A stretch of 64,000 nt of DNA from Marmoricola sp. (GCA_025964795.1 JAOPYC010000133.1:1-64000), one strand, 5' to 3'; shown: positions 52,494 to 57,810, numbered from the stretch's first letter. Program-made: numbers and translations. The notes: generated from the sequence alone by a model not told the origin.

Positions 52494-52660
52494 GCCGACC
52501 AGGCAGTCCTCTCGCGCCGCAGAATGCCGACCGGGCAGTTCTGGCCCGCGGCGCAGTGCCGAGCGGGCAGTTCTGGCCCGCGGTGCGTGACGAAACTGCC
52601 CGGTCGCCGTCGTACGACGTGACGAAACTGCCCGGTCGACGAGCCAGGGGTCACCCCTGG
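52494..52660. repeat. 32-base-period repeat array between convergent genes
   Basis: Three direct units start at 52494, 52526 and 52558 (core GCCGACCGGGCAGTTCTGG), exactly 32 bases apart. Two inverted units (GTGACGAAACTGCCCGGTCG) start at 52587 and 52619, again 32 apart, separated by the palindrome CGTCGTACGACG. CCAGGGGT/ACCCCTGG at 52644-52660 then spans the stop of the SDR gene. Likely a bidirectional terminator or REP-like element. Confidence 0.75.
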
Positions 52661-53527: not shown

Positions 53528-53875
53528 TCAGACCGGCAGCCGTTCGCCGCGCGAGGCGACCAGCGCCCGCGGCGCCGAGAGCCGCCACGCCTCGAAGGTG
53601 AGCTCGGCGAGCTCATCGCGCCCGACCCCGTCGAGGCGCACGACCACCCACCCGAACCCGCCGGCGGTGAACTGCACCTCGAAGAGCTCCGGACGCTCGG
53701 CGACCAGCGCCGCCTGCTCCGCCAACGTCTGCTTGAGCCCCACCGTCCGTGTGGGCTCCCACAGGTAGCCGAACGGGTGACCGGCCACCTCGAGCTTGAG
53801 GTAGCGGGAGTGGTCGACGACCCGTACCTCGTCGAGCTGCCCCACCAGGTCGAGGAACTCGGCGATCGCGGTCAT
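53528..53875 (-). CDS. MmcQ/YjbR family protein
   Basis: 115 residues. GHPFGYLWEPTRTVGLKQTL, QFTAGGFGWVVVRLDGVG and ELTFEAWRLSAPRALVA match the YjbR/CyaY-like fold of DNA-binding-like proteins. ATG 53875 shares its A with the stop of the old methyltransferase 3' end (TGATG), evidence that the two genes were once coupled. It is now probably without its original promoter. Function unknown. Confidence 0.87.
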   Translation of the reverse strand: MTAIAEFLDLVGQLDEVRVVDHSRYLKLEVAGHPFGYLWEPTRTVGLKQTLAEQAALVAERPELFEVQFTAGGFGWVVVRLDGVGRDELAELTFEAWRLSAPRALVASRGERLPV

Positions 53876-53940
53876 CAGCGGACCAGCAGCGCCACACACT
53901 CGACGTGGTGCGTCATCGGGAACACGTCGATGGGCCTGAG
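53875..53940 (-). pseudogene. left-behind 3' end of the RNA methyltransferase gene
   Basis: Reading the minus strand from about 53940 to TGA 53877-53875 gives LTLRPIDVFPMTHHVECVAL then LVR. The intact gene at 56653 ends DLRALDLFPMTSHVECVALL then VKSDSGLR. The fragment uses the normal G/C-rich codons of this genome and has no start, so it is the displaced original end of that gene. The shared DNA GTCATCGGGAACA (53912-53924 and 56708-56720) marks the probable crossover. Confidence 0.8.
53912..53924. repeat. putative attachment-site half (left), GTCATCGGGAACA
   Basis: Identical 13-mer at 56708-56720, 2796 bases away, at the same codons of the old and new methyltransferase ends. The inserted DNA lies between. 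Confidence 0.6.
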
Positions 53941-54056
53941 CGTGAGTGCCATCGTGTGCGACTGGGTGCACCCCACGGGCGTAACTGCCCTCTGACCTGC
54001 GGCGATGCCCCGAGAGGTCTGAGGTCGTCAGCACGCCGCTGAGGGCGCTTGCGAAT

Positions 54057-54119: not shown

Positions 54120-55094
54120 TCAGGTCTCGCCGCGAGCGCGTGCTTCGAGGTACTGATTCATCACCGCCACGGGGATCCGGCCGCGGTCGGAGACGACAAT
54201 GTCGTGCGTGGACGCCCAGCGACGTACGTCCGCAGGGGTCGGCGGTGCGGGCGCGAGCGGCCGTGCAGCTTCGAGGGCTCGTACGGCGTTGGCGCCGACC
54301 ATCTCCTCCGCCAGTCCGACGCGCGCAGCTGCGAGGAAGCGGTAGGTCCACTCCTGGGCGAGCTTGCGGGTCTCGCAGAAGACGATCGGCACTGTCGGGA
54401 ACCGGATCTGGCATTCGGCGATGCCATCGGCCACGACGCTGGGCCGGACGTGGTCGAGCTTGAAGACCCGCGAGTAGCCCTCTTCGACGACGACCGCAGC
54501 ACGCGGGATCGCGGCCAACTCAGTGAGCTGGAATTTGAGCTTGCCGGTCGTCAACGACGTGACGAGATCGGCCAGCGACTTGCGCTCCACCGTGGCCTGC
54601 AACAGCCCGTCGACGAGGAGACCGTAGTCACCGGCCTTGAGCGGCTCGGGGCGGGTCGTCGCCTGCCGGTCGGCGAAGGTGAACGGGTACCGCTCGCGGA
54701 TGTCGACCGCGATCTCCAGGTCCGCGACTCCACTGGCGCGGGCGCCCGGAAGAGAAACCGCGGGGCGCGCTTGCTTGGACGTGCGCGAGGTCTGCCAGAA
54801 GATCATCTGCCGCCCGCGAGCATTGGTGATGATGATCTGGGAGCGGTTCTCCCTCCCGCGATCGAGCACGAGGTCGATCGCTGCGCCCCGTCGTACGCAG
54901 GACCGCACCGCCACCCGCTCGACGATCTCGGCGTCGGCCGGCCACTCCTCGACCCGGTGGCAGTACACCTTGCCGGTGCGCGGCCACGTGTCCTTCGCCT
55001 TGAGGATGATCCCGTCCCCGAGCGGGACTCGGAGCAGGTACGGGAGCGTCGACCCGGGTTCGGTGTTGCGCGCGATGACGAAGTCCTCCGGCAT
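54120..55094 (-). CDS. ERCC4-type nuclease fused to an Lsr2-like DNA-binding domain
   Basis: 324 residues. N-terminal part (1-115) of unknown fold. ERCC4/XPF nuclease core about 127-255: AVDIRER (D131), AGDYGLLVDG (D156) and VERKSLADL, the E170-R171-K172 active-site triplet. C-terminal 286-320 (PADVRRWASTHDIVVSDRGR) matches the Lsr2 DNA-binding domain with its RGR minor-groove clamp. A GGGGGAG ribosome site precedes ATG 55094. Third gene of the island operon, two bases after the nucleotidyltransferase. Likely a structure-specific or AT-seeking nuclease; target unknown. Confidence 0.82.
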   Translation of the reverse strand: MPEDFVIARNTEPGSTLPYLLRVPLGDGIILKAKDTWPRTGKVYCHRVEEWPADAEIVERVAVRSCVRRGAAIDLVLDRGRENRSQIIITNARGRQMIFWQTSRTSKQARPAVSLPGARASGVADLEIAVDIRERYPFTFADRQATTRPEPLKAGDYGLLVDGLLQATVERKSLADLVTSLTTGKLKFQLTELAAIPRAAVVVEEGYSRVFKLDHVRPSVVADGIAECQIRFPTVPIVFCETRKLAQEWTYRFLAAARVGLAEEMVGANAVRALEAARPLAPAPPTPADVRRWASTHDIVVSDRGRIPVAVMNQYLEARARGET

Positions 55095-55096
55095 GG

Positions 55097-55819
55097 CTAC
55101 AGCTCCCCCGCCGTAGCGAGGCGCTCGAGCGAGTTCTCCGCGTCGGGCACCTCGAGCAGCAGCGCGCGGTCCTTCGTGGCCGCGGCAACCATCGCCCGCA
55201 AGCGCTGCCGGTCCTTCTTCGTGAGCTCCTCGTTCCTGAAGTCGCGGGCCGTGAGCAGCCCGGCGAGAATGACGAAGTCGCGCCGGTGCCGACCGAGGCC
55301 GGGGTCGCCTGCGTTGCTGAGCGCTGCCGCCTTGCCGACCAGTGCGCCGACGAGGTTGGGACGACGTACCGATCCTTCGCGGCCAGCGACAGTCACCGTG
55401 ACGGTCTCGCTGCGCTGCAGCGCCTGGGTTCCGCCGGCCGTCGGGAGGGCCGGGCTGCCGGTGACACCGGGACGGAGGCTTGCGCGCTCGCCAATCCCGT
55501 CCGGAAGAAGCACGTCGAGGGACGCGTCGCCACGAACCCAGCGATGTTGGAGACCCTCCGCCGAGATGCCTGCTGGTCTGAACCCGAGGTCGGTCAGCGT
55601 CTCGGTAAAGGTCGCGAGCATCGTCGGGTCGGCCCGTACGTCGATCACTGTGTCGGCGTCGTTCGTCGGTCGTACCGGGAACTGTCCTCGTTCGGCGCAG
55701 TGCACGTGGACGAGCTGGCCGCCGATCAGCGTCCAGCCCTGTGCAAGCCGCTCGTGGAGGTCGAGGAGCCCGACCCACGATGCGGTCTGCTCGGGGGGCA
55801 TGGGCGGCAGGACGATCAT
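55097..55819 (-). CDS. nucleotidyltransferase-fold protein, AbiEii-like toxin candidate
   Basis: 240 residues. WTLIGGQLVHVHCAERG and RPTNDADTVIDVR form the GG...D-x-D pattern of pol-beta-type nucleotidyltransferases such as AbiEii/MenT, which as toxins modify tRNA ends. A C-terminal helical part follows (RHRRDFVILAGLLTARDF). ATG 55819 overlaps the HTH stop (ATGA). Antitoxin-first order and coupling fit a type IV-like toxin-antitoxin pair; family assignment is from motif only. Confidence 0.7.
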   Translation of the reverse strand: MIVLPPMPPEQTASWVGLLDLHERLAQGWTLIGGQLVHVHCAERGQFPVRPTNDADTVIDVRADPTMLATFTETLTDLGFRPAGISAEGLQHRWVRGDASLDVLLPDGIGERASLRPGVTGSPALPTAGGTQALQRSETVTVTVAGREGSVRRPNLVGALVGKAAALSNAGDPGLGRHRRDFVILAGLLTARDFRNEELTKKDRQRLRAMVAAATKDRALLLEVPDAENSLERLATAGEL

Positions 55820-56535
55820 CGCTCGCCTGCCCTCCACTCCAAGGCAAGCTCGTGTAGCAGTTCCGCAGCCCGGGCCTCCTCGCGCGGCCTGCGGAGCTCG
55901 GCGAGATCGGCGGCTAGCCGGAGCCGTGAGTCCGGGTATGGGTACTGCCCGTCGGAGACGACGTGGAGCACGACGTTCGCATCACGATCGGCCTCGACCA
56001 AGAGGTAGTCCTTGAGGACACCCTCCACGAGCGACTCGGCGAGATAGCCCTCCACGTCGGGCGAGGCGATGCCACTCGAACCCAGGTCCACGATCATTGC
56101 CCAACGCTCGTCGGCCCTGAGATCGGCAAGGTCGGCCGGCGCTGCACGCAGCAGGCGCCGTCCGGCCCTGTTGCGCAACACCGACCGGAGCGACACCACA
56201 AGTTGCCTGACGACTTCCTCATCGGCGGCGGGCTCCGCGGCCGGCTCGAGCAAACGCTTCAACTGCATCCGCGCCCGCGCCGACACCGCAGGCCCGCTGC
56301 CGCCCACCCGGTCGCGGTCGTCCTCGGACGCCGCGATGACCGACCAGGCAGAGCGGGCCGAAAGCGGGCGACCCGCCTTGCTGCGCTCCTGGACCCGCAG
56401 CAGGGACCGCTCATCGACGACCCACTGGGATCCAATCCGCTCAGCAGACAATGAACCGTCCGCGATGCGCTGGTGGATCCGGGGCACGCTGACGCCCAGC
56501 CGCTCCGCGGCCTCTGCGACGCTGACTGCTCCCAT
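55816..56535 (-). CDS. HTH regulator, probable antitoxin/repressor of the island operon
   Basis: 239 residues. N-terminal excisionase/MerR-type HTH (VSVAEAAERLGVSVPRIHQR, then IADGSLSAERIG). The rest is helical and charged with VEGYLAESLVEGVLKDYLLV near residue 170; no family recognised. ATG 56535 is seven bases after TAGGAT, and a 9-base inverted repeat lies across that promoter, as expected of an autoregulated first gene. Confidence 0.75.
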   Translation of the reverse strand: MGAVSVAEAAERLGVSVPRIHQRIADGSLSAERIGSQWVVDERSLLRVQERSKAGRPLSARSAWSVIAASEDDRDRVGGSGPAVSARARMQLKRLLEPAAEPAADEEVVRQLVVSLRSVLRNRAGRRLLRAAPADLADLRADERWAMIVDLGSSGIASPDVEGYLAESLVEGVLKDYLLVEADRDANVVLHVVSDGQYPYPDSRLRLAADLAELRRPREEARAAELLHELALEWRAGER

Positions 56536-56538
56536 GCG

Positions 56539-56568
56539 CACAATCCTAGAAGAGTTTCAAGGATTGTG
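56539..56568. promoter_or_regulatory. operator and promoter of the island operon
   Basis: Perfect inverted repeat CACAATCCT (56539-56547) / AGGATTGTG (56560-56568), 12-base spacer, centres 21 bases apart (two helical turns). The minus-strand -10 TAGGAT (56548-56543) lies inside it. Confidence 0.7.
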
Positions 56569-56611: not shown

Positions 56612-56652
56612 ACGGCCCGTTCGCGGGCTCGTGCTCACGAGCCCCGATTACA

Positions 56653-57810
56653 TCACCGCAGGCCGGAGTCGCTTTTCACAAGAAGCGCAACGCACTCCAC
56701 ATGGGAAGTCATCGGGAACAGGTCCAAGGCGCGCAGGTCCGCCAGCCGGTAGCCGGCCTCGGCGAAGTAGGCCACGTCACGGGCGAGGGCCGCGGGGTCG
56801 CAGGCCACGTAGGTGACCGCGCGGGGGGCCCGCTCGGCGATCGCCCGCACCACCTGGCGCTTGGCCCCCGCGCGCGGGGGATCGAGTACGACGAGGTCGA
56901 CACCGGGGCCCTCGGCCTTGCCCATCCGGTTCAGCGCGCGGTCCACCCGATCGCGGACGACGGACACGCCGGGGAAGGCGGCGAGGTTGGTCGTCGCCAG
57001 GTCGGTGGCCTGCTTGTCGCTCTCGATGGCGGTCACGGCCCCGCGAGCACCCACCGCGTCGGCCAGGAAGGCACTGAACAGCCCCACCCCCGCGTAGAGG
57101 TCGAGCACCCGCTCCCCCGCCTGCGGCTCGAGCATCCCGAGCACCGTCTCAACCAGCACCCGAGGGGCCCCCGGGTGCACCTGCCAGAACCCGTCACCCG
57201 CGACGGTGAACGAGCGCGTGCCGAAGGAGGTCTCCACGACCTCCTCGACCGGCCCCGAGCGGTCGGGCTCACGCGCGTCGGGGTGGGCGATCAGGCAGCG
57301 GTCCACGAGGACGACCTCGTGCGACCGGTGCTTGCGCAGGCCCTGGTCGCCACCGGGGAGGTGGACGTACTGCATCCGCGTCCGCCAGAAGAGCCCGTCC
57401 TGGTCCCCCGGGACCGCCTCGACCTCGACCGACCGGGTGATGCCCGCCAGCCGGGACAGCTGCTCCATCACCACCGTGGCCTTGAGCGCGCGCTGCTCGG
57501 CAAGCTCGACGTGCTGGAAGTCGCAGCCGCCGCACCCACCCGGGTGCGCCAGCGGGCACGGGGCCGGCACCCGGTGCGGCGACGGCACGTCGACCGATAC
57601 GGCGTCCGCGCGCAGGAACCGCCCGCTGTCCTCGGTGATCTCGATCGTGACCTGCTCGCCGGGCAGCGCGTGCCGGACGAACGCGACCATCTCGCGGTCG
57701 TCGATGTCGGTGGGGATCCGCGCGACGAAGTGACCGCCGTGGGCGACGGCACCGACCTCGACGTCGAAGCGCTTCCCCACCAGCGAGTCGGCGTCCGGGG
57801 TCTCGGTCAC
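56653..57810 (-). CDS. class I SAM-dependent RNA methyltransferase (TRAM/RlmD-RumA-like) with replaced 3' end
   Basis: 385 residues. N-terminal TRAM domain (RFDVEVGAVAHGGHFVARI), Fe-S-type CPLAHPGGCGGCDFQHV, SAM site VLDLYAGVGLFSAFLAD, catalytic VLDPPRAGA and YVACDP. Methylates uridine-5 in rRNA or tRNA. GTG 57810 overlaps the KimA-like stop (GTGA). The last 20 codons (GTT, CTT, CTT, AAA, AGC) are unlike the rest of the gene; they arrived with the island and restore the reading frame. Confidence 0.9.
   Translation of the reverse strand: MTETPDADSLVGKRFDVEVGAVAHGGHFVARIPTDIDDREMVAFVRHALPGEQVTIEITEDSGRFLRADAVSVDVPSPHRVPAPCPLAHPGGCGGCDFQHVELAEQRALKATVVMEQLSRLAGITRSVEVEAVPGDQDGLFWRTRMQYVHLPGGDQGLRKHRSHEVVLVDRCLIAHPDAREPDRSGPVEEVVETSFGTRSFTVAGDGFWQVHPGAPRVLVETVLGMLEPQAGERVLDLYAGVGLFSAFLADAVGARGAVTAIESDKQATDLATTNLAAFPGVSVVRDRVDRALNRMGKAEGPGVDLVVLDPPRAGAKRQVVRAIAERAPRAVTYVACDPAALARDVAYFAEAGYRLADLRALDLFPMTSHVECVALLVKSDSGLR
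56708..56720. repeat. putative attachment-site half (right), GTCATCGGGAACA
   Basis: Twin of 53912-53924. Downstream of this point in the gene's reading direction the codons change style. Confidence 0.6.

Follow-up and report, generated by a model that had tools for sequence, protein, structure and literature searches.

Nucleotidyltransferases (NTases) of the DUF1814 type are defined by motifs I–IV, i.e., hG[G/S], R..DhD, K, and D (PMC3985639), and in MenT1 the phospho-acceptor T39 precedes D41 (PMC11375011). Streptococcal ICEs are known to integrate at rumA/rlmD (PMC4701971). The locus analyzed here lies in a 64,000-nt stretch of DNA from a Nocardioides-like genome (hereafter the window, with positions counted from its first letter) and contains both an NTase gene and an rlmD gene. 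It comprises three genes, all intact and located on the minus strand: gene 1 encoding an HTH protein (55816-56535), gene 2 encoding an NTase (55097-55819), and gene 3 encoding an ERCC4-Lsr2 protein (54120-55094). Genes 1 and 2 share a 4-base ATGA overlap, and genes 2 and 3 are separated by 2 bases. The initial annotation of this DNA, which joined the three genes into one putative anti-phage system, had drawn the ORFs, their order, and both junctions correctly.

We favor, as a fairly probable reading, that what is left at this locus is a small, now eroded integrative element of the rlmD 3' end, with a cargo composed of a MenAT/AbiE-like toxin-antitoxin pair and a functionally separate XPF-Lsr2 nuclease. 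The rlmD cassette is the only place where the three genes move as a group, and they therefore probably do not constitute one dedicated anti-phage system. The analysis separates two things that had looked like one, the pair and the nuclease.

Cassette at the 3' end of rlmD

Genes 1–3 form the cargo of a 2.8 kb cassette that has a direct repeat of the rlmD 3' end at each boundary; these repeats give exact limits to the small island postulated in the initial annotation. The target gene, rlmD of the 23S rRNA uracil-C5-methyltransferase family, occupies positions 56653-57810 (minus strand), and its original downstream neighbor, a yjbR-family gene, is found at 53528-53875 (minus strand). A 52-nt direct repeat is present in the rlmD 3' end upstream of the cassette and again at a site between gene 3 and yjbR. 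The left attachment-like core (56687-56718, minus strand) lies inside the rlmD 3' end, and the right one (53891-53922, minus strand) corresponds to the displaced native rlmD 3' end. The 32-base core pattern occurs in exactly two copies in the window and in none of the shuffled sequences, with no copy expected by chance. Terminal inverted repeats, about CTCTGACCTGCGGYGATG as read from the sequence, are situated just inside the cores, the left one, CTCCGGCCTGCGGTGATG (56651-56668, minus strand), pairing with the right one, CTCTGACCTGCGGCGATG (53990-54007, plus strand). RlmD as it now stands ends with ...CVALLVKSDSGLR. Since the in silico removal of the cassette restored a complete RlmD of 379 aa, ending with FPMTHHVECVALLVR and having a stop codon that overlaps the yjbR start, the present C-terminal residues of RlmD are supplied by the cassette. 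The element would have entered the rlmD 3' end by site-specific recombination driven by a tyrosine recombinase, providing the gene with a replacement 3' end.

An intact recombinase of this class was found in a relative. At the rlmD site of genome G290 (contigs C150/C152), a tyrosine recombinase of 361 aa (Phage_integrase, E 1.1e-11; L078:8269-9354) is encoded between the core and gene 1, and internally deleted remnants of the same integrase ORF occupy the same place in N. acrostichi and N. daeguensis. This G290 site forms an array and includes a nitrate reductase (narGH-like) operon as well. Neither an integrase nor the remnants seen in the relatives were detected in the window cassette, and the N. 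szechwanensis copy is likewise devoid of an integrase. Because the window cassette carries no integrase, we infer its mobility from the relatives.

The cassette proteins of the window and N. szechwanensis are 92% (HTH), 94% (NTase), and 92% (ERCC4-Lsr2) identical, as against approximately 62% for RlmD, 76% for the APC permease, and 86% for TrkA; the gap between the cassette proteins and RlmD shows, at the level of sequence, that the cassette moved laterally. The nucleotide alignment of the two loci runs at approximately 75–80% through rlmD and jumps to approximately 97% exactly at the core and onward. In the alignment of the window with genome G259, the core region is the sole common part and is followed by unrelated cargo. 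Among the hosts, ERCC4-Lsr2 proteins are 87–92% identical regardless of host kinship: N. daeguensis and N. carbamazepini share 97% identity in TrkA but 87% in ERCC4-Lsr2. An ordinary rearrangement that brought chromosomal genes together by chance, with no mobile element involved, would fit a window copy that has no recombinase and none of the integrase remnants of its relatives, but it is contradicted by the exact rlmD repeats, the restoration of rlmD upon removal, the identity breakpoint at the core, and the integrase of the relative, and we regard it as hardly credible.

Across 24 genomes of the same genus, the core was present once in 17, two or three times in five, and not at all in two. 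Different cargo was found between the same rlmD repeats in G259 (L094:5778-10013; two-component and ABC-transporter genes) and in G296 (L095:7860-13306; LuxR-type regulator and IPT/TIG-like protein), the product names being read from the sequence. As the cargo varies between the same repeats and no integrase accompanies it in these two genomes, the rlmD 3' end looks like an exchange site for small cassettes of varied cargo in Nocardioides. The genome from which the window comes has a third rlmD core near a contig end (G000:C81:151-182, L100), beside ABC-transporter and two-component genes. Two decayed NTase-ERCC4 copies stand in tandem on one contig of G337 (L079; G337:C66:1-6934), suggesting repeated insertion. 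Elsewhere in the window, between the aldo-keto reductase and SDR genes (52530-52640), repeated and partly palindromic units GGGCAGTTCTGGCCCGCGG / CGTGACGAAACTGCCCGGTCG with a REP-like look were noticed.

The HTH–nucleotidyltransferase pair

The product of gene 1 matched HTH_17 in the Pfam profile search as well as the excisionase HTH model TIGR01764 and the PHROGs excisionases, and PADLOC returned only cross-hits at the level of the HTH. Its C-terminal domain of approximately 190 aa is conserved together with the pair. Just upstream of gene 1 lies a palindromic operator, CACAATCCT-N12-AGGATTGTG (56539-56568), a perfect 9-bp inverted repeat that was absent from every shuffle of the window. The single operator that the initial annotation had placed before the genes is thereby borne out. 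It is kept in N. szechwanensis, N. caeni, and G290, and imperfectly in other relatives. In a set of 32 HTH genes, eight were preceded by an inverted repeat at p <= 0.05 versus shuffles (approximately 1.6 expected).

The excisionase matches, together with the position of gene 1 after the integrase in G290, could indicate that the operon is purely mobility machinery, with gene 1 acting as an excisionase (RDF) and gene 3 as an element-processing nuclease. This seems very unlikely, as many genomes contain pairs of genes 1 and 2 whose flanks lack a related integrase and, unlike small Xis proteins, the gene 1 product has the long C-terminal domain conserved with the pair. We predict that gene 1 encodes an antitoxin and autorepressor.

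The gene 2 product had no family match in Pfam, NCBIfam, PADLOC, or PHROGs. The DUF1814/AbiEii and AbiEi (COG5340) models of Pfam, NCBIfam, and PADLOC matched neither gene 1, gene 2, nor any of the 30 NTase homologs. The AlphaFold model of gene 2 (pLDDT 93.5) adopted an AbiEii/MenT-type nucleotidyltransferase fold, with MenT1 as the top structural match (8an5_A; Z 12.9, rmsd 3.7, 176 aligned residues), MenT3 at Z of approximately 12, and the resistance NTases ANT(2'')/LnuA lower, at Z 9–10. Residues G33, G34, D54, D56, K163, and D181 were invariant in the 30 homologs, R50 and T52 were kept in at least 90% of them, and D102 was also listed among the nucleotidyltransferase residues. The hGG and R-x-T-x-D-h-D motifs, K163, and D181 correspond to the motifs by which DUF1814 is defined (PMC3985639). 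T52, two residues ahead of D54, is placed like T39 of MenT1 and S78 of MenT3, a correspondence of motif order and not a residue-level superposition.

PADLOC model PDC-M21B gave a match to one distant NTase; it was marginal, did not appear for six NTase members scanned singly, and was dismissed. Plasmid pTpau01 encodes a relative that carries the annotation AbiEii/AbiGii family protein and follows a DNA-binding protein. No relatives of gene 2 were found in the phage/virus sets IMG/VR or INPHARED, and the same held for gene 3, so a phage origin was rejected.

Outside the rlmD lineage, the HTH gene directly adjoined the NTase gene in 24 of 27 NTase loci, lay 1.7–1.8 kb away in two, and was absent from one. 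The MenT fold, the intact motifs, this conserved pairing, and the palindromic operator make it likely that genes 1 and 2 constitute an autoregulated MenAT/AbiE-like toxin-antitoxin pair, in agreement with the toxin-antitoxin-like pair put forward initially. The HTH protein would bind the operator, repress the operon, and neutralize the NTase. Upon loss of the element or a drop in its expression, the NTase, the predicted toxin, would modify nucleotide or tRNA targets and bring about growth arrest. Such arrest upon loss may hold the element in place, making the pair an addiction module, with abortive infection possibly a by-product.

The ERCC4-Lsr2 protein and its neighbors

Gene 3 encodes an N-terminal beta domain, an XPF/ERCC4 nuclease domain (PF02732, residues 130-253, E 8.8e-16), and an Lsr2 DNA-binding domain (PF23359, residues 284-318, E 9.8e-11, above the gathering score), the C-terminus also matching the solved Lsr2 domains 2kng and 6qkp by profile. 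The junction of an XPF-type active site with an Lsr2 domain was therefore recognized rightly at the outset, as were the active-site residues D131, D156, and E170-R171-K172; these, along with E134 and D176, are invariant in 27 homologs. The RGR motif corresponds to R304-G305-R306, with G305 invariant and R306 kept in at least 90% of the homologs. The closest folds of the nuclease domain are those of Hef and XPF (1j24, Z 15.9; 2bgw, Z 16.4). By fold alone, the N-terminal 105 residues tentatively resemble the LigD 3'-phosphoesterase (3p43, Z 9.3; 5dmp, 6.4). Profile similarity between this domain and 11 actinobacterial phosphoesterase (PE) domains was not observed, and the HxD metal-ligand motif of PE (H21 and D23 in A5) has no evident counterpart in it (LPYLL).

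The Hef/XPF folds and the tentative LigD-like N-domain, as well as the presence of Ku in all sampled genomes that gave a substantial match to gene 3 (152 of 198 genomes have Ku overall), would suit an accessory DNA-repair or end-processing nuclease captured by the cassette. It would act on 3'-flaps or branched DNA like XPF, with the Lsr2 domain merely replacing the (HhH)2 of XPF/Hef for DNA binding. However, genome size and lineage confound the Ku correlation; among 111 gene 3 loci, a single one had Ku within the flanks retrieved, so a link to Ku/NHEJ by position was discarded. Unlike core repair genes, gene 3 is patchy, often broken or lost, and plasmid-borne. We consider the repair reading rather unlikely.

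At least 336 gene 3 loci were counted in 84,980 species genomes, those listed all belonging to Actinomycetota. Any match to gene 3 was obtained in 38 of 198 class genomes and 37 of 198 family genomes, many of these matches being to the Lsr2 domain alone. The gene was also carried by 23 plasmids (Mycobacterium, Rhodococcus, and others), in several of them beside recombinases or a Tn7-like transposon; these contexts come from records other than the mycobacterial plasmids known for virulence genes. On Rhodococcus plasmid pDK3 (L236), the ERCC4-Lsr2 gene directly adjoins TnsA/TnsB/ATPase/TniQ of a Tn7-like transposon. Gene 3 is a patchy accessory gene and not a housekeeping one. The fused XPF-Lsr2 protein is widespread and conserved in actinobacteria, and uncharacterized; among the papers searched, none mentions both ERCC4 and Lsr2 or deals with an ERCC4 domain in mycobacterial plasmids.

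The initial annotation had proposed to look for co-occurrence of the three families across actinobacteria and for their enrichment in defence islands. Within the best 80 of the at least 336 gene 3 loci, the pair was adjacent to gene 3 in the rlmD lineage only. Beyond the lineage, 71 of the 71 best-matching gene 3 loci had no adjacent pair and 27 of 27 pair loci had no gene 3 in the flanks, so conservation of the three-gene module across actinobacteria was rejected. In two Blastococcus genomes a distant pair lies 2–6 kb from gene 3. PADLOC matches were not in excess among 72 genes adjacent to gene 3 as compared with 64 distal genes, arguing against a defence-island setting, and PADLOC gave only a weak match to gene 3 itself. 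No conserved partner of gene 3 emerged, the commonest neighbor family being DUF222 (4/72). Of the two observations named at the outset as speaking against a three-gene system, rare adjacency elsewhere is largely what we found, whereas a housekeeping role of gene 3 is at odds with its patchy, partly plasmid-borne occurrence.

Within the lineage, intact copies of each of the three genes evolve under purifying selection (dN/dS 0.09–0.23), and the genes have been lost independently. N. daeguensis and N. caeni kept genes 1 and 3 with only a stub of the NTase gene; G146 kept the pair, with gene 3 missing at the site; G136 has no pair and an N-terminally shortened gene 3; and G063 has a C-terminal relic. 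An operon-like distance between the pair and gene 3 is preserved in at least five cassettes. In N. carbamazepini (L145:5318-7975), a distant HTH-NTase pair (NTase 42% identical) takes this slot and is closely followed by the same gene 3. This slot swap and the spacing hint at a functional coupling. In a genome of a different genus (G310; L119), a pair of the N. carbamazepini subfamily follows rlmD by itself.

A dedicated three-component anti-phage system, in which an Lsr2-guided nuclease cuts incoming AT-rich DNA and the pair guards or back-stops it, would agree with the spacing retained alongside two different pair subfamilies, with the fact that, in a host of approximately 70% GC, an intact nuclease carries an AT-binding domain, and with the Blastococcus loci. 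The independent losses, the separate occurrence of pair and gene 3 beyond the lineage, and the PADLOC counts speak against it. Because of the operon-like spacing, such a system is possible for this lineage; as a general system it is not supported, and overall we judge it improbable.

We prefer the reading of an eroded element with a toxin-antitoxin pair and a separate nuclease. In it, the Lsr2 domain would draw the nuclease to AT-rich DNA, where branched or flapped DNA may be cut, to the presumed benefit of the element, the host, or both. A more ambitious proposal, which we put forward tentatively and hold to be unlikely, is that gene 3 encodes an interference nuclease guided by base composition. 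In the host of approximately 70% GC, AT-rich non-self DNA would be read by the Lsr2 domain and cut by the XPF domain, giving a sequence-independent restriction of incoming phage or plasmid DNA; the gene would have spread on its own through the chromosomes and plasmids of Actinomycetota and through small integrative cassettes.

Comparison with known systems

Like the streptococcal ICEs, the cassette has an rRNA methyltransferase gene of the rumA type as its target. The ICEs use serine integrases, insert within rumA, and carry conjugative modules (PMC4701971), whereas the cassette is associated with a tyrosine recombinase (in G290), replaces the 3' end of the gene, and has a cargo of three genes.

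The pair shares with MenAT/AbiE (DUF1814/COG2253) the bicistronic order of regulator and then NTase, the MenT1/MenT3 fold, the palindromic operator, and the hGG...R-x-T-x-D-h-D, K, and D motifs in gene 2, with T52 in the position that MenT1 T39 and MenT3 S78 occupy by motif order. It differs in that neither protein of the window matches an AbiE/MenT model of Pfam or NCBIfam, and the candidate antitoxin combines an HTH_17 N-domain with another C-domain instead of being a COG5340 AbiEi. The pair would bring an apparently undescribed antitoxin family to the MenT-fold toxins.

The gene 3 product resembles the XPF/Hef/Mus81 (ERCC4) nucleases in having the ERCC4 fold and an entirely invariant active site, GD...ERKxxxD, but it has neither a helicase nor (HhH)2 and possesses instead the beta N-domain and the Lsr2 DNA-binding domain. 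With the xenogeneic silencer Lsr2 it has in common the RGR-type DNA-binding domain, recognized by PF23359 and by the profiles of solved structures; unlike Lsr2, it has no N-terminal oligomerization domain and is joined to a nuclease. If the Lsr2 domain steers the cutting, a known xenogeneic silencer would become a xenogeneic cutter.
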